The notes beneath the pieces are model-generated. The model saw only the letters and a program-made list of their open reading frames with translations. It was not told the origin of the DNA and did not search any database. From Phorcus lineatus (lineage: Eukaryota > Mollusca > Gastropoda > Trochida > Trochidae): a stretch of 64,000 nucleotides of DNA. The DNA lies in the NCBI GenBank assembly GCA_921293015.1, contig OV121091.1, positions 11,375,755-11,439,754 on the forward strand. Direction: 5' to 3'. Positions 10,180 through 64,000 of the stretch are shown here, in pieces. The number at the start of each line of letters is the position of its first letter. Position 1 is the stretch's first letter. The translations under genes and the position numbers were made by a program.

Positions 10180-13141
10180 TTAAATGGTGGTTCCAGAAGC
10201 GGCAGCACCAAACTCCATGATGTTATTATGGTCACATTTGCCGAGGACATGATGGTCGATGGTTGACATATGCTTGTCTACAGCTGTGGCGCTGCTTCCA
10301 TCTCCCAACATTGCGAACATCTTGGCCTGAAAGATAAACATGGTTCAATTAATATAAAATATTGTGAAAATAAATGCCTCTCATTTCGTTAACAGGTTTT
10401 TCTAACAGTGTGGATATAATCTGATACCCATAATGAACCTTCCCTTGGAATTTCCCTCTGAACTATCTTTACTCAAATCATCTGCACTTCAGTGGTCTTG
10501 TGAAACATAATTTCATAAAATTTATTGTTACGAGAAGGTGGAGGTAAGGTGAGGTGAGTTGGTGTTTAACGCCGCTTTCAAGATTATTTCACTTATATCG
10601 CGGCTGCTAGTATTAGTGCAGGGAGAAAGCCCGCAACACCATTGTGGCTACGTATTGCGGTGAAACCTGCGAGCATCGGCTGGAACTAGCAAACCATGGG
10701 TGGTACTGCGCTGAATTTCAGTGTAGCATTGCACCCAAACCTGATTGCGTGTAGAACAGTTCTCTACTGCAGACAAAGTTGCCGAGCCCCTGGCGGGATT
10801 CGAACCACGGTCGTCCTGATCCGAAGCCGAACGCGCTAACCACTGCGCTATCCCGCCCCAACGAGAAGGTGGCGAACTTGTTTGGTAACGAGTTGTTTTC
10901 TTTTTCAAGCATATTGAGGAGCTTGAATTTGCGATTTGAAAATAAAGCATCCCTTTTGATTGGCTGTAAACACGTAAGAGTGAGCTAAAAGCTGTAGTCG
11001 AGAGCCAATTTCCTCAAAGAAAGACAAAAGGGTGTAGAACTCGCCTATTGAAAGGCTCGTTGGTCCTACTGACGGAACAATTTAATTGGCTTTACAAATC
11101 AGGGCAGGTAATTTCAGTACATCCTTTAAACATGAAAGGTTCCAACAGGTGATAGCTTGAAGAGTATACGAATATTATTAATAATAATAATCAAATTTTA
11201 TAGCGCCGAGTTTCAGCTGGGCTGTTCACAGGCGCTTTACAATCATTATTACCCTGGTCTAACCCAAGCTGCCGATTACGCTTAAAGTTTATCAACACGT
11301 GTCTCAGTGTGGGGCAGGGAATAACCCTTTAACTCTCACTTAATACAGCAATGATCGGGTAACCCACTCATCCGGCCAGCCACGCCAGTTGTTGCTGAAC
11401 TTCACTGTTAGCGGTCAACTGAGCTACGCACAGGACCACGTGCCACCACGGCAACATTTACATCAGTCAATATTTGGTAACAAATACCATTTACTTTTAA
11501 ACCGTTAAAACACTATATTAATTGCATTAAAAAAATTTATTATGTTCAGCATTTGCAAAATTACTATTCAGTATTCAATAACGAAAATGGTTTTAAGGTC
11601 TATATATGTTAAAGAAACAATTGTCTAATGTTCATATTTAACTTAATAATTAACACCTACACTCAAATCTAAATGAAAATAAGAAATGTAGATGAATATT
11701 ATTGAAATAAACAATGAATAAAACAGTAAAGTTTATAGCAATCATTATTATATAATGTGATATATTTGTTATATTTTACTGTACAGGCCTTCAAAAGGTT
11801 CCACTTACTTCAATGGTTGTAAGTTTTGCTGGGTCGGTTGTAAGAGCAACATCAGCGTCGGAGAGTTTCCACAAGTAACAGGTGTCGTGGGTGTTCATTA
11901 TCATGTACCCCTGCAATGATGCTAAACGTGTATTTGTGTAACACTAATTTCATCAAACGACATAGGGATTTCCCCTTTAAAATACTTCTAAATCCAGAGT
12001 TTATATTTTCCAAAGCATGTACAGTTAAGTTTCAAGGAAAACCTTAAGCTTCTTTTTTTCCAAACATACACAAAATGTTAAAACTATAATATAATTTAGA
12101 ATATTTTCTATTTTTACATGCATTTTCGTGACTTAATCAAATTTTTCTTCCAACATCAGCATAAAGAAATTCTTCTTGAAAATTTGAAGATTTACTAAGA
12201 ATGCTCATTGAGTATTTGTTTAATACTATTTTCATCGAGCGACATAAGAATTCTCCCTTAAAAAAGATTTTCTACAAATCAATAGTTTATATTTTCAAAG
12301 CATATGCTGCACGGTAAAGTCTCTTAGAAAACCTGAAGCTACTTTCTTTTCAATACATATATATAATCATAATAATTTATATATAATACAATATATAATC
12401 ATAATAATTTATATATAATACAATATATAATCATAATAATTTATATATAATACAATATACAATCATAATTAAGGTGATTTCTAGTACAACATGCATTTGC
12501 ATAACTTATTAAAATCTACGGACATTGGCAGAAAGAATTTTTCTTCTTAAAAATATCCAAATAAGAAGTTTAAGTCACACTTACAGCCTCAACTGCGAAT
12601 TTGTAACTGTCCTTCAAATGATCAACGTTGTGATTTGGTGGGTGAGTGGGATGAGTGGGATGAGTGGGATGAGTGTGGTGACCATTGGCCAAGTCCACTA
12701 CTTTAGTTGGGTGAGTTGGATGGGTTGGATGATGGTGGTCACCGTTGTGTACATTTCCTGGTTGATGATGTTGGCACTAGGTGACAAATATTATTAAGTT
12801 AGATATAACATTTGAGAAAAAGAAGGGTTAGGAAAGGAATGTTTAAACATAAGGAGACCGCAAACAAATGAAGTATATACGTTCATAAACATATTTTACT
12901 CAGTCTCCCTAAACACCGTAATCATGATGTAGCAAACTGCCTTTATTGAAATAAAACACAATTTTAAAAAATGAAAATAATTTCTAAACTGTAAAAAGCA
13001 GAACATTTAGCAAAATTATTTTAATGCAAGATTATATCAAAGAGATTCTATTATTACGAATTCATATTATCTAACAGAATTGAAGCAAAAACTTACAGTT
13101 GCCAAGGTAACACAGACGAACAGGAGGGCAAACTTCAGCAT
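10180..13141 (-). CDS. Gene A: small secreted His-rich protein, BRICHOS-like (4 exons)
   Basis: Coding exons on the minus strand: 13097-13141, 12585-12776, 11809-11910, 10180-10326; all introns are GT-AG and phase 0, giving 161 residues. Exon 1 is a signal peptide (MLKFALLFVCVTLAT). Exon 2 starts CQHHQPGNVHNGDHHH and contains two blocks of PTHPTHPT; 16 of its 64 residues are His. Exon 3 (GYMIMNTHDTCYLWKLSD...) carries the first conserved Cys, exon 4 (AKMFAMLGDGSSATAVD...) the second (LGKCDHNNIMEFG). The Cys-Cys spacing and the strand-helix-strand look resemble a BRICHOS domain; this is inferred. His clusters suggest metal binding, also inferred. No transmembrane segment follows the signal, so secretion is expected. 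Intron 3 holds a young SINE (10542-10860) and a second candidate SINE (11177-11460). Gene B is the closest relative. Confidence 0.85.
10542..10860 (-). mobile_element. Full-length tRNA-derived SINE with 12 bp target duplication
   Basis: On the minus strand the head reads GGGGCGGGATAGCGCAGTGG then TTAGCGCG (pol III box A) and GGTTCGAATCCC (box B). The body continues to a tail CGGCGTTAAACACCAACTC followed by CACCTCACCTTACC repeats. The insertion is flanked by perfect direct repeats ACGAGAAGGTGG at 10530-10541 and 10861-10872. It lies in intron 3 of gene A, antisense to nothing coding. The tail resembles SINE tails known from gastropods (recollection, not a search). Confidence 0.9.
11177..11460 (-). 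mobile_element. Candidate second tRNA-related SINE
   Basis: On the minus strand GTGCGTAGCTCAGTTGACC is a good pol III box A, and the element ends in ATT repeats after GGCGCTATAAAATTTGATTA. A clear box B was not found (AGTTCAGCAAC is a weak candidate). It lies in gene A intron 3. Confidence 0.5.
12361..12465. repeat. 32-bp tandem repeat, three copies
   Basis: The unit starts ATATAATCATAATAATTTAT and ends AATACAAT; it starts at 12361, 12393 and 12425, nearly identical, followed by a partial copy. It lies in intron 2 of gene A. Confidence 0.9.
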
Positions 13142-13184
13142 TGTCGGATCTTTGGTGATTTGTGTCACTGGAAGCTGGGGGCTT

Positions 13185-13228
13185 GATTTATACATTATGG
13201 ACACGTGTCATGTGTATTGGGATTGGCT
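13185..13228 (-). promoter_or_regulatory. Gene A core promoter: CCAAT box and TATA box
   Basis: Minus-strand TATAAATC lies at 13185-13192, 44 bases before the start codon, and AGCCAATCCC at 13219-13228. The same pair, in the same order, precedes genes B, D and E (CCAAT at 25718-25727, 36926-36935, 43269-43278). The short distance implies a 5' leader of roughly 15-20 nt. Confidence 0.65.
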
Positions 13229-13444
13229 ATGGACACGAACCTTGGCCGTATTATAGCACCAAAGACGTCAACAATAAATGTTTAGCGTGATAAAACAAGC
13301 AGGAGATAACAAACATACAACAGATGGGGAACGTTTAAAGGACAGGTCAAATAGAATAACGCACTTGGGGAAATATCTATATTTCCCAAGGGAATCAGCA
13401 CGTTTTTAATTTGTATATACAGACCCTTGCAGAATTAGTTACCT

Positions 13445-13690
13445 GAAAACCGCGATCTGAATGCATTCTGAATGCATTCGACCGCGATCTGAATGCATTC
13501 TGAATGCATTCGACCGCAATCTGATTGCATTCTGAACGCGTTCGATCGCGATCAGAATGCATTCAGATCGCGGTCAACCGCAGACAGATTGTGATCACGG
13601 TCATTTGCGGTTATTCGCGGTCATTTTGCGGTCCTTTGCGGTTATTCGCGGTCATTTGCGGTTTTTCGCGGTCATTCGCGTTCATATGTG
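13445..13690. repeat. Minisatellite: GACCGCGATC/GAATGCATTC units then GCGGT units
   Basis: The left half repeats a unit built from CCGCGATCTGAATGCATTC and a second GAATGCATTC palindrome. The right half is a run of TTGCGGTTATTCGCGGTCAT-like units. The same two motifs occur in the reverse order at 16815-17070. CG-rich sequence here contrasts with the AT-rich surroundings. Confidence 0.85.
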
Positions 13691-16600: not shown

Positions 16601-16814
16601 ATTTGAAAACATCCCTTACTATTTTTGGCGAGTGTGCCTGTAAATTATCTCTCTCTCTGTCTACAGCCCATGGTTTACCTAAAACGTTGCTTCTGTATTT
16701 CAGATGATATAAAGCCTATTTGCACGAAACATTCAGAGCAACGACTGCGTAATTAAGAACAAAAACTTCTTCTTACTGAAAGAATCTATCTACCGACTCT
16801 TGATTTAGATTGCC
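13691..16814. other. Gene-free spacer
   Basis: No family exon, tRNA or long frame with recognisable motifs. A purine-rich AGAGAG tract lies at 14208-14250. Everything else appears unique and AT-rich. Confidence 0.5.
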
Positions 16815-17070: not shown

Positions 17071-17089
17071 AAAGATATATGCAACCCAC

Positions 17090-23121: not shown

Positions 23122-25639
23122 TTAAATGATAGGGGTTGTTACAGTTACAGTTCCAGTTGCACCTCCAGCGGGAGCCCCGAACTCCATGATGTTATGATGG
23201 TCACATTGGCCGAGGACGTGGTGGTCGATGGTTGACATGTGCTTGTCTACAGCTGTGGCGCTGCTTCCATCTCCCAACATTGCGAACAGCTTGGCCTGTT
23301 AGAAAAAAGGATCAATCACGGTTGATATAGGACATAGTTATGTATCAACCATCCTCAATTACCTAGGGCATATGTTCCGATCCTCTGTACAAATAATTCC
23401 TGAGAACCGTCCTTCAATGCATGTAACCAAATTATCAGACCTTATCTAGAAATAACGTGTTTCGAGAATATGGACAATCAGATTTACAGTAGTCACTTTC
23501 CTAGCAAGCTCCTTTCTCTCTCCATAAAAGTTCCTTAAAAATATATGTGCTTACCTGTGTTCTAATACGAGCGTTTCTAGGTCTAGACATGTATTGGAAG
23601 CGATTACAAGATCAGTTTGTTTATAGTTTGTAAAGGTAATCTTTATTCGAATGAACACTCAGCACTTTTTACTCAGATCACAGATTATTTCTATCTAATG
23701 TTCCTAATGATAAGTCCCTGGGGTGATGGTGTGTAGAGCACCGAAACATATAGATTTGTAACCGAGGAATTGTATGAACACAAAATATTGGGCAATATTT
23801 GATTACGTATAACATTTACTGTTCAATTATTGCTGAAATGTGTGTTTATTGTTAATATTTAACAGTTCCATTGTCCAGCATTTGCGAAATTCCTTTCAGT
23901 GTTTAACTTGCAAATTAGGTCTTAAAGATCTATGTTTAAAGGAAATATTCTTCAATGTTCTACTTAAATTCATAATTTAACATTTTCTAATTCAAATAGC
24001 AAAATAAAGACTAAAGTTAAGATTATTTGAATTTGAAGAAAAACTTTAAAAGTTGTAATTTCTTTTGTCAACTGTTTTCATAACGAGATGCCACATTTAA
24101 AATATTCTACTGCTCAGGCTTTCAAAGGTTTCACTCACTTCAATGCTTGTAATTGTTGATGGGTCGGTTGTAAGCGCAACATCAGCGTCGGAGAGTTTCC
24201 ACAAGTAACAGGTGTCGTGGGTGTTCATTATCATGTAGCCCTGCAAGTGATTTACGAAGGATGCTAAACGTACATGTGCATTAGTGCGGAACCATTTTCA
24301 CTTTTTTATGTATCAAAATCAAACATGATTCAAATGTCATAAAAGCCTTTATTTTTCAATTCCATATTTTTGTCTGCAATAGCACGTGCTGTGAACATTA
24401 AAATTGCGGAGAAAACGTTAAGGCTATTTTCTTTTGATAATGCCATGCATAAAATGTCGACACTATCATAGGATGTTTCAACTTTTATTATTTGCAAAGA
24501 AGTGAAAATGTTTCTTATCAATGCGATTTGATAGTACTTTCTCATCTAAGTAAAACTTTCAAAGAGTGCATGACGTCACGTGTACAACGATGTGATGTCA
24601 TATAATTATCGCTACATCGTCACCGTTTCCGAGTTAACGGTATGACGTCGCTTGAAAGTCTAATGTGAAGGAATTGTTGACATCAATCACAACATTTTCG
24701 ACCACAGAGGCATTTATAGATATAATATATTGGTTTTCAGTGTTATGTCACTATCTTTCTTCTAGTTACGGGATAAGCGTAATATTTCTCTCGCGTCTGC
24801 GGCATTCGTGAAAATATGGCTTTCCCTTGTCACTCAATGAAAGATAATTGATATCACACTGAAAACAAAAAATATCAACTATTTGTATGAATTCTAATCA
24901 TTTGCTGACATTATTCTTTAAACGTCGGCAAAATCTATTCCTCCTTAAAGATAAAGGTTATTTTTTACTCTCGAAATGTCCGAATGAAAAGATTTAAATC
25001 ATACTTACACCTTCAACTGTGAATTTGTAATTGTCCTTCACGTGATCGGGATGTGCCTTAAGTAGGTGAGCTGGTTTGGTTGGATGAGTTTGGTGCTCTT
25101 TGTGTAAGTCCACAGGTTTAGTTGGGTGGGTATTGTGCTCTTTGGCTTGAGCAAAATGCTTTCAAGAAAGATGAGAATGAGTGAATATTTTAAGGAGAAG
25201 GTGCAACTTCTGTATTCAGGCATATCATGCAGGCAAAGTGAGACGAATAGCTAAGAACTCTGTCACTAATCTTACATACAATTTTAATACCATCTTTCAA
25301 TAGAAACATTTGAGCATTCCAAATTGCCCTTCATTACAAAAGCAGTAACGAGGAGAGGAAATTATATGATTTAAACGCATAACATAAGTTACTAGTTTAA
25401 TTCTATGGAAAAAACATTATTAGTGAAGTAAATTACTAAGTAATGGAATAAGGCAAAATCAATATATTTTCCGAAAATAAAGAAACAGACCATTACATCT
25501 GAATGGCGGAAAATATTATTTTAAATATAAATATGAAATTATTATTATTGAATTAATATAAAAAAACCATCTAAAATATCGGATAAAAACTTACAGTTGC
25601 CAATGAAACAAAGACGAAAAGGAAAGCAAATTTCAGCAT
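23122..25639 (-). CDS. Gene B: small secreted His-rich protein, BRICHOS-like (4 exons)
   Basis: Coding exons on the minus strand: 25595-25639, 25009-25158, 24139-24240, 23122-23295; phase 0 GT-AG introns, 156 residues. The signal peptide is MLKFAFLFVFVSLAT. The linker differs from A and D: it begins HFAQAKEHNTHPTKP, has two HPTKP units rather than long HPT runs, and lacks the Cys that opens exon 2 in A, D and E. Exons 3 and 4 are close to identical to those of gene A up to LGQCDHHNIMEFG. The tail is longer and Thr/Val-rich (APAGGATGTVTVTTPII). Function unknown; the BRICHOS-like call is by pattern. Exon 2 start is the least certain part (acceptor AAAG at 25159-25160). Confidence 0.8.
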
Positions 25640-27392: not shown

Positions 27393-27395
27393 CTG

Positions 27396-27684
27396 CATCT
27401 GTGGTGTAGTGGTTAGCATGCTGGCCTATCGCCGCCGACGACCCGGGTTCGAATCCCGGTGGAGACACCAAACATTTGTGACCTGGGTCTCATACCGCGT
27501 TGTGTCCTTGGGCAAGGCACTTCATCCACATTGCACTCAGTTAACCCAGCTGTATAAATGGGTACCTGAATAAGGGAAGTACGGAAGCGCTAAGTAGCTG
27601 CTGTAGTACAATTCCTTCAGTGTAATAATGGACCGCCAGTGAGCAGTGCCTCGCACTGGATATTAGGCGTTAAAATGTATATTA

Positions 27685-28992: not shown

Positions 28993-30090
28993 AAATATAG
29001 AAATGCTATCACCCACTTCGATGATAGAAAAGGTTGGTGGATCATTTACAAGAGCAAAAGCAGAGGTTGTAAGTCGGTATTGGTTGGTATTGTGGGTATT
29101 TATTATCATGTACCGTTGCACGTGATATAGTAAACGAGCTTTAGTGTAACACTTTGTGAAGAAGAAACCAAACGTGAATGTTGTATGATAATTTAGAATT
29201 ATTGTAAAACGTTTGCTGCTAAAAGCATGATATTAGTACAGTAAAGTTTAGAGAAAAAAGGGCAGCTAGTTCTTTTAAGAAATTCTTTGAGTAAAATTTT
29301 ATTTCTTTTTTGGTTCATTTTTGGTTTGCTATACATCTTTATCGTCATTTTACATACTTTCTTCAATGATGGTCTACTTGATAAAAATGTATGTCAAATC
29401 AAAAGTCAAATTATATATACAGGTTTTGTATTACTATGTAGTTTTATGATTATGGATATATGAATATGTATGCTGTTTGGTTGGTTGTGTTTGATGCGTC
29501 GGGTGAGTATACAGACATGGCTAGGTTGGTTGTTTAAATGGATATCAAGGACGTTCCATACACTTACGGTATCATAAGCAAATATCGAAGGGAAAAAATA
29601 AATGTATCTTAACAAAATACATTTATGGCGAGAATGAAAAGACAATTTCAGTATCAAATATCGCAGGAAAACTAATTTTATTCAAATCTGTACATGGTAG
29701 ACTTTTTAACAATCGTTTGATTTCGTTAGAATTAAAAACATAAAAAAGATGAAAAAATTAATTTTATTGATGGCAAGTTTCCCACTTTTATTCAATCTGT
29801 ATGGAAACATCGCACTCTCAAAACAAATGTGTTGCCATCCATAAAGTATTGTCGTCATTGGAATTCAAACCACTCAGAGTAGGTAAAAACTAGACAGGAG
29901 ATAGTTTTACTATTATCTCATGGGTTTAAATGACATGCTAATTCTGAAGTTGTTGAATACTGAAAAAAGGGATAAAACCCTCACGACTACCAAGGCGTTA
30001 ATGGTTATAAGGTGGGCATATTAGATCAGGTCTGAGAATGTGTCACGTCATTGAATCGCGCCATATGTGTATGTTTCATACCATCGTCGT
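28993..30090 (-). pseudogene. Relic C: decayed gene of the same family
   Basis: Minus-strand 29113 to 29015 reads YMIINTHNTNQYRLTTSAF and ends NDPPTFSIIE, clearly exon 3 of the family, with the preceding THNT but with the conserved Cys replaced and a codon missing. Around 29470-29540 a degraded stretch (CCAACCTAGCCATG, CCCGACGCATC, CCAACCAAAC) sits where the His/Pro/Thr exon 2 would be. Near 30040-30075 the CACGTCATTGAATCGCGCCAT sequence resembles the promoter flank of gene B. I found no exon 4 or signal-peptide exon. It is probably dead. Confidence 0.6.
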
Positions 30091-32202: not shown

Positions 32203-35200
32203 TTAAGCAGAAGATGTTGTAAGGGTTGCTGTGGAAGCGCCGAATTCCATAATATGTGGATGTGCACATTTGTTGATCACTTCATGGCTCAAACTTGTAG
32301 TGTTCTTGTCTACAGAAGTAGCATTAGTACCATCGCCAACCATTGAGAACATCTTAGCCTGCAAGTCAAACAGGAATCTTGGTAAAACTGAGTGTCTGAA
32401 ATTCTTGTTCATTTCCAAACACATTCTCTCCCAACAGAGGTAACTCCGTCATAAATTCCTATACTACCTCTGTCCTAATACGAAGGTTTCTTGTGCTTTA
32501 GGCATATGCCCCTACCGGCGCGATATTGCAACTTAAACTACCTGGCAATATTTCAACCAATGAAAACACCGAATGCATGAATAACATATTTGTTGACACA
32601 CAGGCCTATGTAATGATGCAGTTGCAAAAATGAGGCGTTTTTGTTCTATAAAGAAGACTCAAAGTGCCAGGTGCATATTCGGAAAAAAATTTGCTTTTGG
32701 AAAGCTTACGGAAATAATTTAGACGATTTAAATGATACATTTTGAAACGGCGTCGCTGATTGCACAACTTACTTTGATTGCATCCAATCAGATTTCTACC
32801 TTTCGTGCACAAGAAACCATTGTATTAGGACAGAGGTAGTATAGAAATTTATGACGGAGCTACCTCTGTTGGGAGAGAATGTTCCAAACAGGACAAAAGG
32901 CTTTTATTCGACTAGATATTTCCGAATACTACAAGCAAAATGTTTTTGAATGAAGCCTAGAGAAAGGTGGAACGGTAAATTAGAATAAAGTGTATACTCA
33001 AATAAAAGAACGTCAAAGTACCTACATAATTACATATTACAGTTGGAAATACAGAGTGAACTGGTTTCAACTACTCGTACATCTTGCTTCATTATATTTC
33101 ATTTAAGAAAAGATACTACCATCCTTAGTAACTACATTTTATTATTTATGAAGTTTGTCACCATATTTTCATAACTTTATATACTTTTCATATCTTTATT
33201 ATACGTGTTTTTACGCAGCTCTAGAAATAAAGGTTTAACTTACTTCAACGGTGGAAACGGTTGCCGGGTCTTTTGCGAGAGCAACATCAGCGTCGGAGAG
33301 TTTCCACAAGTAACAGGTGTCGTGGGTGTTCATTATCATGTAGCCCTGTGGGGTATAGATAAACAGAGATTGCAAACGTCTCAAATAAAACGTCAAAAAA
33401 GAATCATCGTTCATATTCCAAGAGCCACATCCCTCAAAGAAAACAAGAGCAAGTAATTGCCACCTTTTCCATATCATTCACGTCATGTAAAAGACAGAAG
33501 ACTCCTCTGTTTCGTTATGATCAATACTCACAACAACGATAGTCGGGCATCTTTCAAATTTTCAACAAAGCTAAATCTTGCAAAAAAAACATGGTAGAAG
33601 CATTATCACATATGTCGTCATATCTTTAAAATAAAACATCAAACACTCATAATTACATTTTATCATACAATCACAATTAAAAAAATCTCACAAGCTACCC
33701 AGTGTCACAAACTCTCAAATATCACATATTTAGTAACATCATCACATATTTAATAACAGGAAAATCTCAAACATAAAACAAAAGGCAGACACCGTCGCAT
33801 TTTTCAACACAGTCACATATAAAAAAAACATTAGATAAGTATCATCATATATTTTATCGCCCATAAGCCTCACATATGAACCTTTAGAGACGTCACTCTT
33901 TTGTCTTGGAGAAATTACATCTCAATTTTCTTTTTGAAAAGATTGTTAGTCTTTCTAGTAGATTGTAATGTCTTTCGGATGAAAGCTATCATAAAATAAT
34001 CGCCCCATTTTTGTCCATGTGACTTAGTCACAAATCACAAATCTAATGGAAAAGTCAATGCGATGATATCGTAAATTAACAATGATAATTTCTAGGATAT
34101 AATGTAAATGTTGAAGAATTAGTGACATACCTCTTACAGATCTGTTTTACCACCATTATTCTTAAACATAGCATTTAATCTAAATAAGTATATCTAATCA
34201 TGAACTGTAAAATAGCATTTCATTTAACTTTATTGACTGCAAGTATCACATATCAATGTCACCGGTTCGTCCGATCGATATAGTGGATGCCCATGTGCAA
34301 CGGCATTGTTTATAATCGATGATATATAGATATCATGTTTTTCTTTTAAAACATGCATGTTTAGTTGAATAGAAATATACAGAATCCAATCTTAATTTTT
34401 GTTTTAAAAAACATGTCAAAACATCAAGGCGATCTTTTCTTACATTTTCACTTTCATGTCTTCTTTTTGTCGATACATTTACAAAATTGTTATGTCTGAG
34501 CATACCTTAATAGTTCTTAATGCATAATCATGCATAATTTTCATATATGCGAAATGATTTTTGTAAACGTTCATATACAGTTTCGTCCCGACGCAAAAGC
34601 ACAAAGCAACAGGCAAAATACAGCTGACTACACTGACGCTAATTTTATTCATTGTGACCTCGCCAGTCATCAAGGTCGTTTCTGGCACACACAAGATGAC
34701 AGCGCCCAAAGCAGTGTCGTCAAGTGCCGATAAATGAAAAGAAAATTTGATTTTTATCACTGAAAATGTTTGGTAGGGATTTAAGAAGCTTTGGAATGAA
34801 GTAAATTTAAATTTCGATGAAATAACGAATTTTAAGCGAACTGTCAAGTCAAAATTAAGAAATCAGATGTCCTCCCAGTTTAAACGATAGCCTCCTTCTC
34901 TCGTTAGTATGCGATTCACTTGCGAGATTAGTGCATTCGGCGACAGAAATTTCGGTATAGTCCAAACGCATTTTCTCCCAAAAGAGGTAGCTCCGTCATA
35001 AGTTTGTAAATAAATTTATGACGGAGCTACCTCTGTTGGGAGAGAATGATTGCCATAACAATTTCATGAAATGATAGAGCAAGTAGAGATAATTTGCACG
35101 AACACATCTTCCCACAACCACTTTACTTAAAATTCATCAAACCTTGACGGAACGGGGGTATCTTTAATTTGCATATTTATATCGAATATAATCGAAATAA

Positions 35201-41900: not shown

Positions 41901-43194
41901 GTGTCCGGGTTGGCACTGTAAGGAAAACAGTGAAATCAAACTAAATGTATTTATTGTACTTTTGCGTTCTGCTATGTGTTCATGAGATAAGTGCGCCGAT
42001 ATGTTAAATATGTTAAAAAAAAAGAAATTACCACTGGTTGATTTGACCAGATTTGAATTCACAGTCAGATAGGAATATAAGTATACATTTTTAAAAAGTA
42101 AAAATATTTTACATAATAATTCAGTTATTAGATTTATGCTTTTTTGTATAAAAATTGTAACCTTTGTTGTATGTCCTTTACTTTACACGAGCTCAATAGT
42201 GATACCAATATCTTACGATGGTATAGGTAATATAATCATTGTAAAAACATTGTAAAAACATCATTCTTCAATTTCATTTTCTTTGGTACAAACGAAGTAT
42301 CGGGGATCAACTGAAGAATTATTATTGAACAGATATTATCTTACAAAATCAAAACTAAAAGCAATTCTCATTATTGAAGGAGAGAGGGAATATTCGAAAA
42401 GGTTATAATAGAACCTCAATATTAATACCAAGAAGAAAATGTCTCATGTGTACATGTCTTCACTGACTATAGATGCATTGATAAATATTGCACATTTGTT
42501 TACATTAACAGCGGTATCTATACACAATATACAAAGAAATATGCAATTTGTATGATTTTAAAAGAGCACAGGGTATGTTGTTGGAGTCAAATATGTCAGA
42601 CTTAATAAATGGTGTTATCTTATCCAGTAGCGGTTATTTCAGAAAACCAGAATTCGAACCCTAATGCTTATCAGTTCCCGACGGGTTAAGGTCGTGGTTT
42701 GTGATCGAAAACCGGACAGTGGCGAGCCAAGGACTCAAACATAATTTTGGAAACTTATTTACATCGGACAGAAAGAATAACATAGGTTGATAGTGTTAAA
42801 AAGGTTATCTGACTAATGTAAAAGTTAATTTAACGCAGTATTTGGAGGTTTAACACTTACAGCGCCGTTTTCCAAGTATCATTGAAAACAACAAAATGCC
42901 ATATTTTTGTCACTTTAGAGATAAAGATGCGAGATCAGGTGTTTGAATTAACTTAACTCAGGTCAGAAGGTATTTTGGCTCTTACAAAAATCATGAAACA
43001 TAACCTGTGTCACTTTAACTGTAAATATTAACAACAGTAGTAAACTACAATATATTGCAATGAATATAATTTTCGCTATAACCCGGCAAAGAAACCATAA
43101 CTCAAAAACAGATTCCTAATTGAAAAAAGTAAATACTTGTACGACTTACTGTTGCAACGACAACCAGGCACACGAAAAGCGCAGTCCTCATCAT
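38991..43194 (-). CDS. Gene E: small secreted protein, BRICHOS-like, no HPT repeats (4 exons)
   Basis: Coding exons on the minus strand: 43150-43194, 41838-41915, 39575-39676, 38991-39158; 130 residues. The signal peptide is MMRTALFVCLVVVAT. Exon 2 is only 26 codons (CQPGHHGGPGGDHIHDEYRF), the same length as exon 2 of plus-strand gene F, so E is structurally intermediate between the two sets. Exon 3 is GYMILDTHDGCYVWKLESSD, again 34 codons. Exon 4 starts MKMFAMMGDGTSATELDHHS, has its Cys in GPHCEHHRVFELS, and ends in a Ser/Thr/Met tail. Intron 3 would use a GC donor (GAG|GCAAGT) instead of GT, the only non-canonical site in the family. A palindromic element lies in intron 2 (40147-40308). Confidence 0.8.
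40147..40308. repeat. Foldback MITE with about 60-bp arms
   Basis: Left arm GTAAATAGAGAATCTCAACC ... GTGTCTTCTGATATC ... AACACGAGTTGAT; the right arm is its inverted copy ending GAGATTCTATTTATC. The loop contains TATCCGAGGCTTGCCGAGGATA, itself a smaller hairpin. Confidence 0.8.
42559..43020 (+). repeat. Dispersed inverted-ended repeat, 'AAAACCGGAC' family, copy 3
   Basis: Runs from GCACAGGGTATGTTGTTGGA and GTCAAATATGTCAGACTT through GTGATCGAAAACCGGACAG to ATTTTGGCTCTTAC and ACCTGTGTCACTTTAACT. It is opposite in orientation to copies 1 and 2 and lies in gene E intron 1. Confidence 0.65.
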
Positions 43195-45170: not shown

Positions 45171-45174
45171 ATTA

Positions 45175-47323: not shown

Positions 47324-50300
47324 ATGTTGAAGATTGTTCTCGTTGCTTGCCTTGTGGCTGTTGCTTTTGTACGTTCTTCTCCACTTTTATTTAAATGCAA
47401 ATGTTATTTTGTACTTGTTGTTTTTAACTACAAAATATTTACTCTTTCTTTATTAAGTTTTACTTGATATTTTGCAGCTTATAGATTCATTTAACTAATT
47501 TCCCAAAATGATTTGCAGCTTATCACTTAGGTATACTTAACAATGACCATCTATTTGTATTGAGTGAGATCCTAATTTAGTGTCTAATAACGGAATTCGT
47601 CATAAGGTAAATACTCGCTAACATAACATTAGGCATTATTGCAGGCAGTGTACTAAACTTTGAATATCTACGATGGTCGTCTTTTTAGGAACGATGCTTA
47701 CATGGTGATATCACAACTACACTCTGTTGTGATGTAATATGTATTCCTGTATTTCACTAGCTTAATATTACCAAAAAGATATTAAGATGTAGTAACTTTT
47801 TCAGACTGCTAAAAAGTAAAGGATTTTATATTGATGTTACTCCCTAGGAGTGACTGAATATTGGTCTATTGTGAGAGATCGAGAATATCCCATTGTTCAG
47901 ACGTTAATGGCCCAAATGCTTGATTAATAGAAGCAATTGATTCAGTTATATATTAAACAGATTTTTTTTTAGCTCGTTTATTTTTTTCAAGAATTCACTC
48001 CTCCCCACGCATTCACCATTACTTAATAGACATGGTGTAATCACCATTAGATAGAATATTATCATTATTGTTATTATTTTTTTGCAGGCCCAGACCCACC
48101 ATGGTGGCAGACCCCATTCAGATATTGTTCACAGTTATATGGAATTCTTTGAAGATAAGCAATTGGTTAGAAACCCTAAACAAATCATGAGATCAAGATT
48201 GGGAAAGTCAGAAATTTGTTTTGAAACAAAGTTTAAAAAAATATCGACCAAATGGTCATGTTTTGGAATACAAGTCTTTACATTTCAAATTTTGCAATAT
48301 TGTTTTATGACCTTTTTTTCTTGTCTTTGAATTTGTTTTCTGAATTACAAAGGTATAGTTTACCCGAGTCAGAGTCCTAGGAAGTAATAGTTTTTTCTGT
48401 GGACATTAAATGAATTGAATTCTCCCATCTCTATATTAGGAAAATGTCACTTTTTCTAATGCTTTTTGGATGTCTTCATTAATAGGTAAATTTGTTCCTG
48501 TGGTATACAGCTGCATGCCAAAAGTTTGTTCACATACATGAATATACTAGTGCAAATATTTGAGATGACTTTGAGGCATCGTAGCGTTGCGAAAAAGAAA
48601 CATATAATATTAAATTTTCAATACACATGTGCAGATCCATTCTTCTTTAAGGGAAAGGTTTATCGTACCCCACAAATACCCGTAACAGTTTTGGCAGGTC
48701 ATTGAAGTGACCAGGGGTCAAAATTCAAATTTTTATTTTTCTCCATAAAATCCTTTATAAGTTATCATCTTCTTAAAAATACGTCACGTTTGCACCTTAG
48801 GACAAAGTCAATGTGATTATGTTGGTTTAAATCTCATAGAGTCATATGGGACATTTTATTTGACATTTAACGAAATCGAAATTTCGAAAATGTGAACCCT
48901 TCTGTCTTTGACAACATGCCAAAATTCGAATTTTTGCACCAGAGACCAGACGATCCCAAAAAGAGTTCAAGAATGGCTATTTCACACATGGAGAGTGGGT
49001 GATCCATTGTCAGTCTTGCTGAAGTTATTCTATTGACGTTGAAACGAAACCAAAATTACATGATATTTGCACTACGATTCAGTGGTAAGTGAACAAACTT
49101 TCGGTATGCAGTTGTAGATAAGACGCTGGTATTATTAATTTTTATTTATTTAATTATTATTGAATTTCAAGTGTGACATTGTAAAAGACAGATGAAGAAT
49201 TTCTATTTTTTTCTAGGAATTCAACATTTATGAATTGATATTGATAAGTTGTTATAAATGAGAATTCCCTACTGCCAAATATGAACATTTTCTAATTTAA
49301 TTGTTTTCATTATTTGTTAACTAGGATACAAAATTTCTTGTCTAGTGAAATGTTAGGGTTGAATTATTTTCGTTATAAACATTTAACTTAAGACACGGGT
49401 TATCTACAAACATTATCTACCAAAAACTTAGGGGGAATCTATTCATTATTCAAGTATGGAATCACTATCTTTGATTCTTAGTTTAACAAACAATCGATTA
49501 CCTTTCGTATGTATTTTTGTTATTTGCAATTAAAGTGTGTCAGTTATGTGTTCATAAATAATTCTTGCTGTATTATTAAGAACCATTATTATAATTATGT
49601 GATGTCAAATACAGGGAGATCTCGTGATGGTCTCACCCACCCACTGTTACCTGTTTGCTCTTAGCGATGTTGAGAAGAAGGACATCGCTGACCCAGAGAA
49701 GATGTTCCAGCTTGAGGTATGAGAACAACTTAATGTCAAGTCTCATCTTGGCGAGACAAATATCAATACTCGCCAGGCATGTAGTTCGTCACCTGCTAGA
49801 AACGTTCCTCTAGATTTTGCAATAATGTTCAGCTTTTGTGTGGTTCCTGGTATGTGTTATCGAATTTGAAACAACAGTAGCTGCGATTTGTTTAAGACCA
49901 TTACGGGAAGGTATCAGTAACAGAAGGATAGGGGTATTTCATGAACGTACAATTTCACAATGGCAACGTTTCAGTATTATTAAAAGTTGTACTTCCATAA
50001 AACAGTTCTCATATCCATTAAGACAAAACCTCTTTGAGCAAAGATCGTGACGTAAAGGACGAGGCGAATATTAACGGAGGAACAACTTTTTATACCACTT
50101 TCCTACGAATGCCTCACTACCTCTCACATTAATCAGAAAAATATCTAAAAATATTGAAACCACAGCAGTTAAGGGCGGTTCATCTTATCAAAGTAACCTA
50201 TGTCTTCCACCTTGCTGTTCTCTTCTGTCCATTTTGTATAAAGAATATAAATATCATATGGTTACAGCTTAAGATGGTGTCCCTTGCTAATGACGCAACC

Positions 50301-50384
50301 AAGCTGACCGATGTCACCGACAAGACTGACCGAATGGTGAACGCCAGATGCCATGGCAAGACCCTTCAGCTTGTATCTGCTTAA
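47324..50384 (+). CDS. Gene F: small secreted protein, BRICHOS-like (4 exons)
   Basis: Coding exons: 47324-47368, 48088-48165, 49615-49716, 50268-50384; phase 0 GT-AG introns, 113 residues. The signal peptide is MLKIVLVACLVAVAF. Exon 2 is a short linker (AQTHHGGRPHSDIVHSYMEF). Exon 3 starts GDLVMVSPTHCYLFALSDVE and ends EKMFQLE. Exon 4 starts LKMVSLANDATKLTDVTDKT, has the second Cys in NARCHGKTLQLV, and stops after VSA. AATAAA follows at 50391-50396, 7 bases past the stop. The exon layout is that of genes A-E, so the families are homologous despite low sequence identity. A TCACAG acceptor-like site 16 bases before the ATG (47302-47304 region) may mean a 5' untranslated exon. Intron 2 carries a Tc1-like element. 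Confidence 0.88.
48508..49114 (+). mobile_element. Tc1/mariner-like non-autonomous element, copy 2
   Basis: Flanked by TA (48506-48507, 49115-49116), with ends CAGCTGCATGCCAAAAGTTT and, on the minus strand, CAACTGCATACCGAAAGTTT. Its interior matches copy 1 in inverted orientation. It lies in intron 2 of gene F. Confidence 0.8.
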
Positions 50385-51054: not shown

Positions 51055-51303
51055 TCATATTAGAATCAAAAAGCAGAAAATAAATACACTCTCTTTACTT
51101 ATAACCAATTCATATTTTTTTGTTTGCTTATATTTTGTCATATTAGAATCAAAAAGCAGAAAATAAATACACTCTCTTTACTTATAACCAATTCATATTT
51201 TTTTGTTTGCTTATATTTTGTCATATTAGAATCAAAAAGCAGAAAATAAATACACTCTCTTTACTTATAACCAATTCATATTTTTTTGTATGCTTATATT
51301 TTG
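51055..51303 (+). repeat. 83-bp tandem repeat, three near-identical copies
   Basis: The unit starts TCATATTAGAATCAAAAAGC and ends GCTTATATTTTG, starting at 51055, 51138 and 51221. Confidence 0.95.
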
Positions 51304-51439
51304 TATTCATTGGGTAATAAAATCTTTGCTTCGAGCCTACCACGGAAAAGAAACGGATCCTTGTTGAATTTTCAATTCAGAAGTGAAGACTCATTACACT
51401 TTATCGCAATCGTATGCCACACCCAACAGTTAACCGTGA

Positions 51440-52452: not shown

Positions 52453-54022
52453 ATGTTGAAGATAGTTCTTGTTACTTGCCTTGTTGCTCTTGCTGTTGTG
52501 AGTTCTATCATATATATTCATAATCTCTTTCTTATATCTGTGTTTTTATAGTTTTCTCTTTAACGGATAAACATTCCAGATGATAAAGAGAGTAGGTCAC
52601 CTTTCAGGTAACAATGTCTGCATAATTTTGAAAATTCAAAGTTTATATAATTTTGCTGAATATAAAAGTAACACATTACAGCAGGGAAGATGCTTTTTAA
52701 AATCTTATGTTGTGTCTTGATCATTGAATTAATTACCTTTCATTTTTGACAAATATTCACAAACATCTAAATTTATTATCGCGAATTGAGATATTTATCT
52801 CAACATTATTTCTATTGACAGGCCCAACCCCAACATGGGGGACATAATGGCGGACACCACCCCCAGATTGTTCACAGTTCAATGTCTTTCTTCGAAGATA
52901 AGCATTTGGTAAGATTCTTCGTCGTCTTCAAGAATAATTGTTTTATCATTTAAAGTATTCAAATCATTACATATCATTTGAAATAACTATTCATCAGCTT
53001 TGCGAAATCATGCTTTCGAGCATATTGCAATACTGAATGTGTTTCCATTCTCCATGATTCGGCATTTACTACTGCTACCACCTGTACAACTACTACTAGT
53101 TATCACCGTTATTGTTACTTTTTCTGTCCCTTGTACCGACTGAGAAAGACCATGAGTTTTCGTCTTCAAGAACCATAGTATGATTGTCCCCATTATTCAT
53201 GACAATAATATGAACATTCTTATTACTAGTAAAAATTTGTTTTGTATTGAGTTACAGTTTTCCTATAATTTACATTATAACATTCGTAATTTGACATATA
53301 TGACATATTTTGAAGTATCAGTGCTGTATAGATAAATATGATCATATATCATCACTTTTGTGATGTCTATTCCAGATAGACCATGTGAAGTTTTCTTAAG
53401 TATCAATGCTTTATAGAAAGATGTTTTCATGTTTCATCACTTGTGTCATGTCTACCACAGGGGGATCTGGTGATGTCCTCTCCCACCCACTGTTACCTGT
53501 ATGCTCTCAGTGATGCCGAGAAGAAGGACATCGCTGACCCAGAGAAGATGTTCCAGCTTGAGGTATGAGAACGACCTAGTGTTATAGACATGTTAAAGAT
53601 CCATTCAGTTAATTTTAGCAGACCCTTATATTACCTTTGAAAATTGACTGCAAAACGAAGATTTAAAGTCACTATAGCTCATTTTCTTACGAAAATAAAA
53701 TGATCTAAGGACAAGGAAACAAGGGTCAAAATTAATTATTATTTTGGTTTCATAATTTGATTCCTGAGTACATTAAACACACATTCATTTTAAGTTAATT
53801 GAGATTGTTAAAGTCTAAGTAATATTCTGATATCCCTGTAAAACTATACTATGCTCTGTTCTAATTGAACATACGTTGTATGCTAATTAAATTTTCTGGT
53901 TACAGCTGAAGATGGTGTCCCTTGCTAACGACGCTACCAAATTAACCGATGTTACCGACAAGACTGACCATATGGTCAACGCCAGATGCCATGGCAAGAC
54001 CCTTCAGCTTGTATCTGCTTGA
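52453..54022 (+). CDS. Gene G: small secreted protein, BRICHOS-like (4 exons)
   Basis: Coding exons: 52453-52497, 52822-52908, 53461-53562, 53906-54022; phase 0 introns with GT-AG ends, 116 residues. It is the most compact member because its introns are short. The signal peptide is MLKIVLVTCLVALAV. Exon 2 is 29 codons with a Gly/His/Asn linker (AQPQHGGHNGGHHPQIVHSS). Exon 3 is GDLVMSSPTHCYLYALSDAE then KKDIADPEKMFQLE. Exon 4 differs from F by little (TDHMVNARCHGKTLQLVSA). AATAAA lies at 54028-54033. Its promoter is like that of gene I, not those of F and H. Confidence 0.9.
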
Positions 54023-55764: not shown

Positions 55765-55806
<42 letters not shown>

Positions 55807-55843: not shown

Positions 55844-55884
<41 letters not shown>

Positions 55885-56242: not shown

Positions 56243-56296
56243 CTTGAAAGGTTCACACATTGTTTTTTCTCTCACAGATTAACACAGCCAGTCAAG

Positions 56297-59200
56297 ATGT
56301 TGAAGATTGTTCTCGTTGCTTGCCTTGTGGCCGTTGCTTTAGTAAGTCCTTCACATTTGATGAGATGCATATAATATTTTGTAGTTGATGTTTGAAACTG
56401 CATCAGTATTTACCCTCTCCTCTGACAATATTTTGAATTTTTTATACATTTCTTATATTAAAACTTAAGATCCATTCAATTAATCTCAAATATTGCAGTT
56501 GATTTCTAAGTTATCCTAAACGATGACCTTCTATTCTATTAAGTGAGTTCCTAATTTAGTTTAAGAAATGGAAATCTTCACAAGTTTGATATAACAGGTA
56601 TGGAAGGAGTTAAGTAATCAACGTCTTACAAGGTGACATAACATTAAGCATTATTGCAAACAGTGCACTAAAATTTAGATATCCGCAATGGTCATCATTA
56701 TACACGGTGATGTCACAATTACACTGTGTTGTGACGTAATACATATTCAAATATTATACTAGTTCGATATTACCAAATATATATTAAGATGTCGTAACTT
56801 CAACACCGGACGATGGATCAGTAAAGAATATCATATTGGTGTCAATGTAATGTATGTTCCCTCGCAAGCAGGTGACGATTGGTCCATTCTGAGAGAGAAA
56901 GATGGATATCCTGTTGTTCCGACCTTAATGCCATAAAGCCAAGATTTGTGAAACCAATTATTTATCAATAACGTATTAAACGAGTTTTTTTTTATTCTTT
57001 ATTATTTTTCAAGAATCCACTCCTCGCAATGCTTTCTCGATTGTGTGATTGGTAAATTTATGGAATTATTAAAACTATGGAATTATCATCATTATCATCA
57101 TTGTTATTATTTTTGTTGCAGGCCCAGATCCACCATGGCAGACCTCATTCCAATATTGTTCACAGTTCTATGATGTTCTTTGAAGATAAGCAATTGGTAA
57201 GAACCTTAAAATCATGATAACAAGATAGGTTAATCATAAAACGCAGTCTGATTGACATCGATTGCACTCCGAGGAATAAAATTTGGAAAATATTTACCCT
57301 CGCGGGATTTGAACCTCTCTCTCCGGGGCTTTCCTATTTAGGTTTGAATCTCTCCAGAGTCAAATTTGTAGAACAAAAATATTTCTCGAAACGCGGTCGA
57401 TTTTAATCAGACTGTGCAAAAACGAAAATAAAGTTTTTAAGAATATTTTGGAATGATTCACTTTTCATTGGAAATTTGAAATCTTTTTAATGGATGACCT
57501 GTTTTATTTGTTTTTTAATTGCTTCTGATATTCGGAAACTTCGGTTACAAACTAAACTAAAGTTACAAATATATAGACTACCCGTGCCAAAGAATAAATA
57601 CTACTAGACACTGTTGACATAAAATTAGATCTGTGAATAATTCATGACACATTCAAAACAAACATTTTATTTTTTCAGTGTTCAGTGTTTCATAGTGTTC
57701 AGTACTTGTCAGTAATTTGTTCTTCATTAATCATTTACTTCTGGTACTTATTTTCCTTGTCATCTGAAAAAGCGGCAGCGCGCACTGTTCAATCATTTTA
57801 TTTTTTCTATTAGTTTGCAGTACTTGTCAGCAACGCATTCTTCATTAATCATTTACTTCTGGTACTTCTGTTGCTTGACATCTTTAATATGAAAAAGAAG
57901 ATTAATTTTTTTATAGTGGTATGATGGCGATCAATATCAACGTTTCTACCGTGATTTTTTCCTAAATATTCAACATATCTAAATGGTCAGAAATTGATTG
58001 TCAAAAATGAATTTAATAATATTTCAGTTTTTGATAATTGGTCTTTTAAAACTTGTAAAATGTGCAACATAATGAATTTCCTAATAAATACTGAAAGTTG
58101 AATGTTTGTGGTAATAATAATTTGAATTAAGGCTTGGGTTAAGAAACATTATCTACCAAATGCTTGAAAAATTCAGTTTTCAAATATGAAGAGACAACTT
58201 TTACTAATTACTTATTTATTGACAATTTAATTTGTTTGTGATATCTTCATACAGAATTAATGCTTTTTTAAGGTACCAGTACTTTAACGATCATATGATG
58301 TCTTCATAATGTGATGTCTGATACAGGGAGACCTGGTGATGGCCTCTCCCACCCATTGTTTCCTATACGCCCTAAGTGATGCCGAGAAGAAGGACATCAC
58401 TGACCCAGAGAAGATGTTCCAGCTTGAGGTATGAGAACAACAATGTCAAGTCTCATCTTCGCGAGACAAATATCAATACACGCCAGGTACATAGTTCGTC
58501 ACCTGCTTAATTTCACCTTCCTCCAGTTTTACAATAATTTTCAGCTTTTGCATACTTCCTATTGTGTATTATGGAATTCTAAATGACGGTATGTGCCATT
58601 TTTAGTGCCGCTCTGGAAGTTGTCAGTTTAGGAATCACAAGAGGATTTCATGGAGGAACAATTTCTTCTCAAATCCACTTGCCTTTGCCTCACCATCTCT
58701 CACTAATAACATTTATCAGAAAAATATAAAAATTCTTTGATTCTTAGTTTAACAAAAGATCGATTAGTTATCATAAGTATTTATGTTATTGGCTATCTAA
58801 AATTGTCAGTGATGTCTTCATAAATAATTCCTGCTTTATCATTCAGTACCAGGACTATGATAATGTGATGTCTGATACAGGGAGATCTCTTGATGTTCTC
58901 TCCCACCCACTCTTAACTGTATGCTCTCAGTGATGCCAGACACATAGTTTGTCACCTGCTATCAATTATCCTCTAGATTCTCCTCGCATTTATTTTTGAA
59001 TTTCAAACAGAGGTATCCCTATGAAAGGTTTAAATGGCATTTTAGAAGGTGTCAGTGTTAGGAAGATAAGATAATTTCATGGAGTTACAAATCTTTTATA
59101 TTCATAATGGAGACGGTTCGGTATGATACAAAATATGGATATCCATAAAACAGTACCCCTATCCACTTTGATACGCTTGCCTCACAACTTCTTGCTGTTT

Positions 59201-59988
59201 ACATTGGTCAAATAGCTTCTCCTATACATTGTTCCAGTGTTTTTCATACTTCTGTCTCTACTGTCCATCTTGTATAAAGAATGTAAATAATATTTGACCT
59301 ATAATACTCATGGCGCTTTGATCATGCTTTGTCATGGATATATGCGCGGTATGAGAAAGCTATTATTATTATTATTATTATTTACTAGGGGAAAGGTGTT
59401 CAAAGTTTCATAACTTGTACTCAATCCCTTCTCATTAATACAATTTGAATATAATGAAACCTCTTTTAGCAAAGATGGTGACGTAAAACATTTGAATTCA
59501 AACCTCGTAATAAAAATAGAAACAACTACAGACGCATACGAAAAATCAGTCTAAGTAGTCTGTAATGAGAAACCAGGATACATCTTTAAAAAACATTAAG
59601 AACTCGCTTGACATCGCTAAAAATGTTATTGATGTTTTAAATGTTATAAACTACTTAGCTAAGGCATGATTCCAGCTGCAAGGCTATGGACAACACAGGA
59701 TCATAAATAAGAATAACCCCTCTATCTTTAACACACAAAATTATGCTGGTCGTTGTTCCTTTTATTACAAATCATTAAGCTATTGTTTAGTACTTCTATA
59801 ACCTTACTAATGTACTATGCATGTGGCACTGCTGCGTATGCATGCTAATGCTTAATGTATTGTGGTTACAGCTTAAGATGGTGTCCCTTGCTAACGATGC
59901 AACCAAACTGACCGATGTCACCGACAAAACTGACCGAATGGTGAACGCCAGATGCCATGGCAAGACCCTTCAGCTCGTATCTGCTTAA
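56297..59988 (+). CDS. Gene H: small secreted protein, BRICHOS-like (4 exons)
   Basis: Coding exons: 56297-56341, 57122-57196, 58327-58428, 59872-59988; phase 0 GT-AG introns, 112 residues. The signal peptide is MLKIVLVACLVAVAL. Exon 2 is AQIHHGRPHSNIVHSSMMFF then EDKQL. Exon 3 is GDLVMASPTHCFLYALSDAE then KKDITDPEKMFQLE. Exon 4 encodes the same protein as gene F exon 4. AATAAA lies at 59994-59999. Gene H is the block-duplicate partner of F: they share the 5' flank, intron starts and a degraded CAATGG..ACGTTTC repeat in intron 3. Intron 3 contains a broken second exon 3 (58881-58936), and intron 2 a MITE at 57238-57415. Confidence 0.88.
57238..57415. repeat. MITE with GCAGTCTGATT ends in gene H intron 2
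   Basis: CGCAGTCTGATTGACATCGA at left is mirrored by TCGATTTTAATCAGACTGTGC at right. The interior is CG-richer (CCCTCGCGGGATTTGAACCTC). It is absent from gene F intron 2. Confidence 0.65.
58881..58936 (+). pseudogene. Broken duplicate of exon 3 inside gene H
   Basis: GGAGATCTCTTGATGTTCTC then TCCCACCCACTCTTAACTGT parallels exon 3, with the acceptor ACAG retained. The Cys codon is now TCT, the next codon is a TAA stop, and the last 46 bases of the exon with the donor are deleted, so splicing it in would be non-productive. Confidence 0.8.
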
Positions 59989-59993
59989 TTGTG

Positions 59994-59999
59994 AATAAA
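59994..59999 (+). terminator. Poly(A) signal of gene H
   Basis: AATAAA 5 bases after the stop codon. Confidence 0.7.
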
Positions 60000-60009
60000 A
60001 CATGACGCT

Positions 60010-63000: not shown

Positions 63001-63640
63001 ATCATTGCTTTATGTATCATATTCGAAAAAGTTTGCAAACGTGTCCAAGATGTAATGAATTCATAAGCTCACATAACAAAATGTAAAATAAATTGCATTT
63101 TCCTGTAAAAGATCAATTCCTATACTTATGAAGCTCTTTCGTAGGGATGAAATCTCATTCTTGTGCCATATACACTAGCTACCAAATTAATTTGTAAATT
63201 AATAATTTTTCTACACTAACAACTTTCACTTATTCATTATCTGAGTCAAAATTGTTAATCCAAAAAATATAAGCTTGCTTAAGGTTGGCTTGTTGTCATT
63301 TGTCCGCATGAAGGTTTGTTTTGTGTCTAACATGTAACTTGAACCCATGGTTAATATTTGTTCTTGATCATTATCAATCTCCGTATTGAATTCTCAAATA
63401 TTTGCCTATATACTTGGAAAAAAAATAGGAACAAAAGTGAAATTTTGGAACAATAGATAAAACTGTTTATATAATTTGCCACACTCATAAATTGCCTATC
63501 ATTACAAAATTTTAATATCCTCGACTCATTTTGTCCAGTAGGTCAACGTACAACATGGTGAGTGTGTTAGTCTTGATAAGAAAATCGTGCTTGTTTTAAA
63601 CTAAACATAAACCTTCTATCATGATTTTTGATAAAGACTT
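60010..63640. other. Spacer between genes H and I
   Basis: Holds the candidate longer Tc1-like element (60518-62128), and an AAAACCGG repeat fragment inside it (60840-60998). Frames at 61167-61502 and 62399-62695 show no recognised motif. No gene is called. Confidence 0.45.
60518..62128. mobile_element. Candidate 1.6-kb relative of the Tc1-like element
   Basis: Ends CAGCTGCTTATCAAAGGTTT and, on the minus strand, CAGCTGCTTAATAAAAGTCT, each flanked by TA (60516-60517, 62129-62130). The 62070-62105 part (GATATTTGCACTA..TTCAA.GGTAAG) matches the inner right end of 48508-49114. The interior contains another repeat and no intact transposase. Confidence 0.5.
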
Positions 63641-63651
63641 ATGGATAATGC

Positions 63652-63659
63652 TATAAATA
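63652..63659 (+). promoter_or_regulatory. TATA box of gene I
   Basis: TATAAATA within AATGCTATAAATACGCCGGC then GTCACGTAAG, a near copy of the gene G promoter. Confidence 0.75.
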
Positions 63660-63708
63660 CGCCGGCGTCACGTAAGTAAGTCACTCTCAAAAAGCCACAC
63701 AAGTCAGG

Positions 63709-64000
63709 ATGTTGAAGGTTGTTCTTGCCTGCCTTGTTACTCTAGCTGTTGTAAGTTCTACCACTTATATTCATAATCTACTTCTTATATTTTGTGTACT
63801 TATTTAAACATTTACTAAAACTCTACTTTAATGTTCATATATATCATGTTTCTTCAAACATAGAAACAGTGTTGTTTCACTATTTTATTGAATAACATCC
63901 CTGTGTCATCGGCTATGATGCGTTGAAAGTAATTTCTAATGAGAAAAGGTTCTGACATTTTTACTAAACGGAATAATGCCCAAGCTGATAAAAGGGAAGA
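63709..64000 (+). CDS. Gene I: first exon of a further family member, cut by window end
   Basis: Exon 1 is 63709-63750 (MLKVVLACLVTLAV), one codon shorter than in the other genes, followed by GTAAGT. Exons 2-4 would lie beyond 64000. Promoter, leader (AAGCCACACAAGTC) and exon 1 resemble gene G, which makes I the likely block-duplicate partner of G. Confidence 0.8.

Follow-up and report, generated by a model that had tools for sequence, protein, structure and literature searches.

A tandem family of small, probably secreted proteins with likely BRICHOS ancestry in the gastropod Phorcus lineatus

Introduction

What do the small, divergently arranged genes of one locus in the gastropod Phorcus lineatus encode, and could they be remote relatives of BRICHOS proteins? 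The BRICHOS domain has been described as an anti-amyloid chaperone that normally resides on the same chain as the peptide it protects. The locus lies in a stretch of 64,000 nucleotides, hereafter the window (C17:11375755-11439754, contig OV121091.1); the whole-genome searches described below covered 957.8 Mb in 74 contigs. A reading of the window from its letters only (the sequence-only reading) had proposed eight genes and one exon relic of common architecture, that is, a signal exon, a variable linker, a 34-codon exon with a cysteine and a last exon with a second cysteine, separated by phase-0 introns, and had likened this order to the BRICHOS layout. We find that the gene family is real and under constraint, and we consider it, with a probability of about 0.65, a family that arose by tandem duplication and encodes small secreted proteins of BRICHOS descent with the domain layout proposed below. 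Published statements are cited from excerpts of the respective papers.

The gene family and its constraint

The gene models were assembled manually, starting from anchors; both strands were read, and all six frames were scanned with exon queries. Eight four-exon genes were assembled with their splice sites, A-D on the minus strand and E-H on the plus strand, with D and E head to head, and the exon relic was recovered as well (Table 1). All 24 introns are in phase 0; 23 of them are GT-AG, and intron 3 of gene D, which has a GC donor, is GC-AG. Exon 1 comprises 14 codons in gene H and 15 in each of the other seven genes, and exon 3 has 34 codons with a cysteine at codon 11 in each gene. The gene count, the relic and the common architecture (8 of 8 genes) were thus borne out, and so was the claim that single-frame scans miss these genes, because the sole stop-to-stop open reading frame (ORF) of at least 150 residues in the window (2008-2787) falls outside the cluster. 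The exon-2 acceptors of genes B and C could be off, and the B model uses an alternative exon-2 acceptor. TATA-like boxes were noted by eye upstream of several of the genes.

In the six-frame scan, exons 3 and 4 of gene A match those of B, C and D, and exons 3 and 4 of gene E match those of F and G, with expectation values (E) between 4e-26 and 4e-10. The flanks of the window, about 20 kb to the left and 40 kb to the right, yielded with the same queries the exons of gene H and otherwise just matches at E 0.6-1.

The ratio of nonsynonymous to synonymous change (dN/dS, Nei-Gojobori) was computed over exons 3 and 4 for E-H; for A-C, exon 3 was combined with the initial 30 codons of exon 4. It is 0.06-0.21 for the six E-H pairs and 0.31-0.38 for the three pairs of A, B and C (A-B 0.31, A-C 0.35), so that synonymous change exceeds amino-acid change approximately 2.6- to 17-fold in these nine gap-free pairs; the three pairs with gene D were left out, as a two-residue length difference remained and one value was undefined. 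The nine values point to purifying selection and therefore support the coding status of the genes.

A second cluster on the same chromosome

When gene C was compared with the genome, it matched the window genes and produced four further matches with E 3-10. Three of these fall together at a second place on the chromosome of the window, and the fourth, at C17:45277753, was dropped as a chance match. An exon query from the second place retrieved five exons at C17:39.85-39.93 Mb, and hand assembly of this region (C17:39850000-39949999, 28 Mb from the window) produced five four-exon paralogs, P1-P5. Their exon 3 likewise has 34 codons and a cysteine at codon 11. When the profile of the eight window proteins is compared with that of P1-P5, the probability is 98.8% and E is 9e-17, and P5, used as a genome query, finds exon 3 of genes B and D at E ~2. 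Three protein queries and one exon query, gene D not being among them, revealed no third family locus among the best-scoring candidates. In the alignment of all 13 proteins (alignment A2), the two cysteines and, within exon 3, an Asp-Pro and a Glu are invariant, and a His-rich stretch separates the signal from the domain in both clusters.

The family is not described in the titles and abstract openings of papers that combine BRICHOS with molluscs or with histidine-rich proteins, subscription journals and animal protein databases being outside this search. The word BRICHOS is absent among the matches listed for oyster, limpet, abalone, gastropod and mussel, and the letters HPTHPTHPT gave no literature match.

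Exon design and the positions of cysteine and aspartate

The genome's own ITM2/BRI-type gene (C32:43324291-43326577) provides a canonical exon for comparison. A hand-joined segment of this gene, containing one mistyped letter, scores 51.7 bits against the Pfam BRICHOS profile PF04089. Its BRICHOS exon (C32:43324905-43325015; 26.7 bits) has 37 codons, is bordered by phase-0 introns on both sides (phase 0/0) and carries the first cysteine, which directly precedes a Phe, at codon 13. The next exon starts in phase 0 and carries the second cysteine. An aspartate stands at position -4 relative to the BRICHOS exon, because the preceding exon, which stops at a phase-0 donor, has HDFRH as its last residues. 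The Cys1 exon is followed by a long array of short repeats.

A second canonical exon comes from human SFTPC. The reported variants c.325-1G>A and c.435G>C (Q145H) (PMC7213507), together with c.435+2T>C, which shortens the product from 311 to 200 bp through the loss of exon 4 (111 bp; PMC8460488), place exon 4 at c.325-435. This exon therefore spans codons 109-145, that is, 37 codons with both introns in phase 0; Cys121 is its 13th codon, and Asp105 stands at -4.

Exon 3 of the family follows the same design. In all 13 genes it is a phase-0/0 exon with the first cysteine at codon 11, and the second cysteine lies in the next exon, 51-54 residues away. The family shares with the ITM2/BRI-type gene the aromatic residue after the first cysteine and, in nine of 13 genes (E, F, G, H and P1-P5), the aspartate at -4; the latter count is one of genes and equals two clades. 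The excerpted text of PMC6265681 describes one strictly conserved Asp in BRICHOS. In gene D, an Asp is found 16 residues before the cysteine in the Pfam register, whereas the intron-anchored register has Asn. The family differs from the ITM2/BRI-type gene in exon length (34 versus 37 codons) and cysteine position (codon 11 versus 13), and the latter gene has a clear Pfam match and an upstream transmembrane-like stretch (by eye, in a partial gene) in place of a signal exon and a His-rich tail. SFTPC resembles the family in that the protein ends with the BRICHOS domain, its client being N-terminal (PMC9714404), but it is membrane-anchored, its exon also has 37 codons, and its cysteines Cys121 and Cys189 are 68 residues apart. 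For the annelid BRICHOS precursor alvinellacin, phase-0 introns have been reported, save the last (PMC4002450); alvinellacin has five introns. Since the phase-0/0 Cys1 exon was seen in two canonical genes only, SFTPC and the ITM2-like gene, it is not an established definition of BRICHOS. At this level, the gene structure supports the putative BRICHOS relationship.

Profile and alignment evidence

The gathering cut-off of PF04089 is 25 bits; Pfam reports matches up to E 10, and the HMMER filters drop most matches above E 0.1. The scan covered 12 of the 13 proteins (gene H was left out). The only PF04089 match is to gene D (E 0.21, 12.3 bits), with residues 35-67 on profile positions 9-41 in the expected register; in an ungapped alignment, D36 and C52 would occupy the columns in which ITM2B and SFTPC have their Asp and Cys. 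Trimming raised gene D to 13.4 bits, still below the cut-off, and no PF04089 match was obtained for four family consensus sequences and three other trimmed members. Weak matches to further Pfam families, among them DUF7791, DUF4860, Transglut_C, TMEM132_C and Arb2, were dismissed as chance, each being below its cut-off and confined to one protein or one consensus group.

The same profile found nothing in the whole genome at E 0.001 and three places at E 10, one of them above the cut-off: C32:43324905, C37:20832665 and C32:5473763. The match at C37:20832665 reads like chance. At C32:5473763-5473861 (16.1 bits, E 9.5), an Asp stands exactly 16 residues before Cys-Tyr, the canonical spacing, and the short stretch that holds them ends in a stop; it may be a real exon, a relic or chance.

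Profile-to-profile alignment of the family with six, then nine, BRICHOS sequences (hhalign) gives E 0.0011-0.0028, valid for a single comparison. Pfam confirmed each of the human sequences used as BRICHOS, and PDB confirmed SFTPC too. Column shuffles never reach the observed score, with 0 of 200 for the family and 0 of 150 in each of three subsets of it; reversed profiles give 8.3, compared with 23.1 observed. Searches of PDB profiles with alignments A1 and A2 found nothing above threshold, the best matches being at chance level (E 0.87 and 0.49).

Significant similarity is seen in exon 3. In a clade-weighted global alignment to the canonical exon of the ITM2-like gene, judged against 2000 shuffles, the family exon scores 15.5, with a mean of -18.7 (standard deviation 6.0, z 5.7) for shuffles in which the cysteine is fixed; none of the 2000 reaches the observed score, and none does when the residue after the cysteine is held as well. 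As a further control we collected from 263 kb of the genome 178 stop-free, AG/GT-bounded pseudo-exons (not real exons) of 33-40 codons with a cysteine at 11-15, and the best of them scores 2.6 against the same BRICHOS exon, below the family.

Several observations weigh against BRICHOS descent. With canonical residues 12-17, around the first cysteine, held in place, the similarity to the ITM2-like exon becomes weaker (2 of 2000 shuffles), and for the cluster-2 clade alone it is non-significant (302 of 2000). Against SFTPC exon 4, the observed score is reached by 13, 77 and 332 of 2000 shuffles (with the cysteine, the cysteine and the next residue, or residues 12-17 held, respectively), and 4 of 178 pseudo-exons score equally high. 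The hhalign probability is just 11-20%, over 12-38 aligned columns; 11 of the 12 scanned proteins have no PF04089 match, and none attains the cut-off. The four genes outside the nine have Asn (D), Glu (C), Ala (A) and Thr (B) at -4. The similarity of the eight residues upstream of exon 3 is not significant (199 and 475 of 2000), nor is that of the last exon to the five canonical last segments compared, with z between 0 and 1.7 and, in the best case, 54 of 1000 shuffles reaching the observed score. Since neither the last exon nor these upstream residues align significantly, the case for homology is based on exon 3 together with its borders and on where the Cys and Asp stand.

The sequence-only reading had proposed a Pfam check of the assembled proteins, and this check went against it, with one match in 12, at 12.3 bits. 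Its BRICHOS layout as such met with a mixed outcome, whose balance leans in favor. The exon design, the similarity of exon 3, the sub-threshold match of gene D and the Asp at -4 agree with it; the lack of any protein at the Pfam cut-off, the low hhalign probability, the dissimilar last exon and the missing Asp of genes A, B and C do not. The latter points, except for the Asp, and the chance-level PDB matches are what one would expect of an independent, lineage-specific family of secreted two-cysteine proteins, alike to BRICHOS in exon size, phases and Cys-Tyr motif by chance. We consider such an origin unlikely, as the resemblance of exon 3 to the canonical BRICHOS exon of this genome exceeds that of shuffled sequences and pseudo-exons, and phases, near-equal length, and Cys and Asp positions agree in addition.

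Protein anatomy and possible function

A hydrophobic exon 1 of 14-17 codons is present in all 13 genes (by eye) and would encode the core of a signal peptide. Most of the putative signal peptides end with Ala or Cys directly before Gln (by eye), and therefore the mature protein would start with Gln and contain two cysteines. Exon 2 would encode a His-rich, probably disordered tail, with Gln at its start after cleavage in most members, and would end with the strand that bears the BRICHOS Asp. The tails are 12-29% His over 17-56 residues; those of E-H have just 17-21 residues. According to the excerpted text of PMC9714404, the BRICHOS fold consists of four antiparallel strands and a fifth, parallel one, with a disulphide between strand 4 and helix 2. 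Exon 3 would supply the Cys1 strand and the following helix, and exon 4 the Cys2 segment and a short closing strand, with the two mature cysteines probably paired as the BRICHOS disulphide. The chain extends 10-12 residues beyond the second cysteine in eight of 13 proteins, and 17-26 residues in A, B, C, D and P5. A beta-prone region has been reported, in an excerpt of PMC10745061, to follow the domain in all known BRICHOS proteins except proSP-C. The convertase site of BRICHOS proteins, RXXR, was found in none of the 13 proteins, and none has a dibasic site between tail and domain; those dibasics that do occur are within the domain or C-terminal. The proteins probably carry a very worn BRICHOS domain and a His-rich tail, with no obvious partner peptide.

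The function that we consider most likely is that of soluble, extracellular, chaperone-like proteins that hold an aggregation-prone partner in trans, or their own tail, because the genes do not encode a furin-type site followed by a C-terminal client peptide. A response to pH or metals could be conferred by the His-rich tail. Judged from sequence, this chaperone role is a tentative proposal with somewhat less than an even chance. A more specific version, in which a BRICHOS lineage has dispensed with a covalent client and a stand-alone secreted domain acts in trans with a His-rich sensor tail, the A-C branch having done without the Asp, seems rather doubtful to us.

The His-rich, low-complexity tails of both clusters, the tandem expansion and the TATA-like boxes could also suit a structural or metal-binding matrix protein of mucus, adhesive, shell or egg coat, the tails binding metals and the disulphide domain serving as a scaffold. 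Such a function would be compatible with BRICHOS descent; we regard it as unlikely, given that Pfam and PDB provide no link to any matrix protein.

Another comparison is with the polychaete BRICHOS precursors arenicin, alvinellacin, nicomicin and capitellacin, which likewise are secreted and have a signal peptide, but in which a C-terminal antimicrobial peptide follows a processing site that the family lacks. Polychaete BRICHOS genes are reported as antimicrobial precursors, multigenic in Alvinella (PMC5431198, PMC6265681) as is the window family, and an antimicrobial precursor of reversed order, with the His-rich N-terminal tail as active peptide and the BRICHOS-like part as pro-region (compare proSP-C), would fit the His content of the tails, but it appears quite improbable with neither RXXR nor a dibasic site between tail and domain in any of the 13 proteins and with tails as short as those of E-H.

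For the BRICHOS descent favored here, a precedent is provided by OAF (Out at First), a BRICHOS member spotted by comparison of predicted folds and then by profiles, as described in PMC9714404; unlike the family, OAF gave significant profile matches, and it possesses a furin-like site and, at its C-terminus, a disulphide-rich peptide.

Other features of the window

The coordinates of the genes and relics are given in Table 1.

Table 1. Genes and relics of the cluster, in window numbering
Feature	Protein (residues)	Span	Exons	Strand	Remark
Gene A	161	10180..13141	13097-13141, 12585-12776, 11809-11910, 10180-10326	-	assembled model
Gene B	156	23122..25639	25595-25639, 25009-25158, 24139-24240, 23122-23295	-	exon-2 acceptor inferred
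Exon-3 relic		~29020..29114		-	E 0.0027 to gene A exon 3; Cys and AG acceptor both lost
Gene C	160	32203..36847	36803-36847, 35208-35387, 33244-33345, 32203-32358	-	exon-2 acceptor inferred
Gene D	130	38991..43194	43150-43194, 41838-41915, 39575-39676, 38991-39158	-	intron 3 GC donor
Gene E	113	47324..50384	47324-47368, 48088-48165, 49615-49716, 50268-50384	+	assembled model
Gene F	116	52453..54022	52453-52497, 52822-52908, 53461-53562, 53906-54022	+	assembled model
Gene G	112	56297..59988	56297-56341, 57122-57196, 58327-58428, 59872-59988	+	assembled model
Dead second exon-3 copy in intron 3 of gene G		58881..58937		+	short; Cys replaced, then stop
Gene H	115	63709..64000	63709-63750 (exon 1), then start of intron 1	+	runs past window end
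Gene H, exons 2-4			64127-64213, 64944-65045, 66075-66191	+	beyond window end; flanking sequence

Several repeats lie in and around the genes. In gene D, a 77-base tandem duplication (39151-39304) spans the start of exon 4. A palindromic element of about 80 bases, similar to a miniature inverted-repeat transposable element, occurs in and around genes C and D (32421-32882, 34969-35051, 38510-38592 and 43926-44008). Two inverted-repeat arms of 311 bases, 89% complementary, are located at 45173-45483 and 48806-49116, the right arm being within intron 2 of gene E, and an 83-base unit is repeated three times with 99% identity between genes E and F (51055-51304). A three-copy repeat (1665-1906, 7090-7179 and 10579-10820), one copy of which lies within intron 3 of gene A, is presumably a tRNA-derived short interspersed element (SINE). 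A tRNA-like sequence with an odd anticodon loop at 27395-27470 (plus strand) is possibly a pseudogene or a SINE head. Outside the cluster, the open stretch of 259 residues at 2008-2787 (minus strand) is what we take to be the C-terminal part of a reverse transcriptase from a retrotransposon without long terminal repeats (non-LTR).

Significance

A duplicated secreted family that has kept the BRICHOS exon design without a client would constitute a natural set of minimal domains, in which the need for the individual parts of the fold, the Asp among them, could be examined. More generally, the present case suggests that relatives overlooked by curated profiles can be recovered through gene structure.

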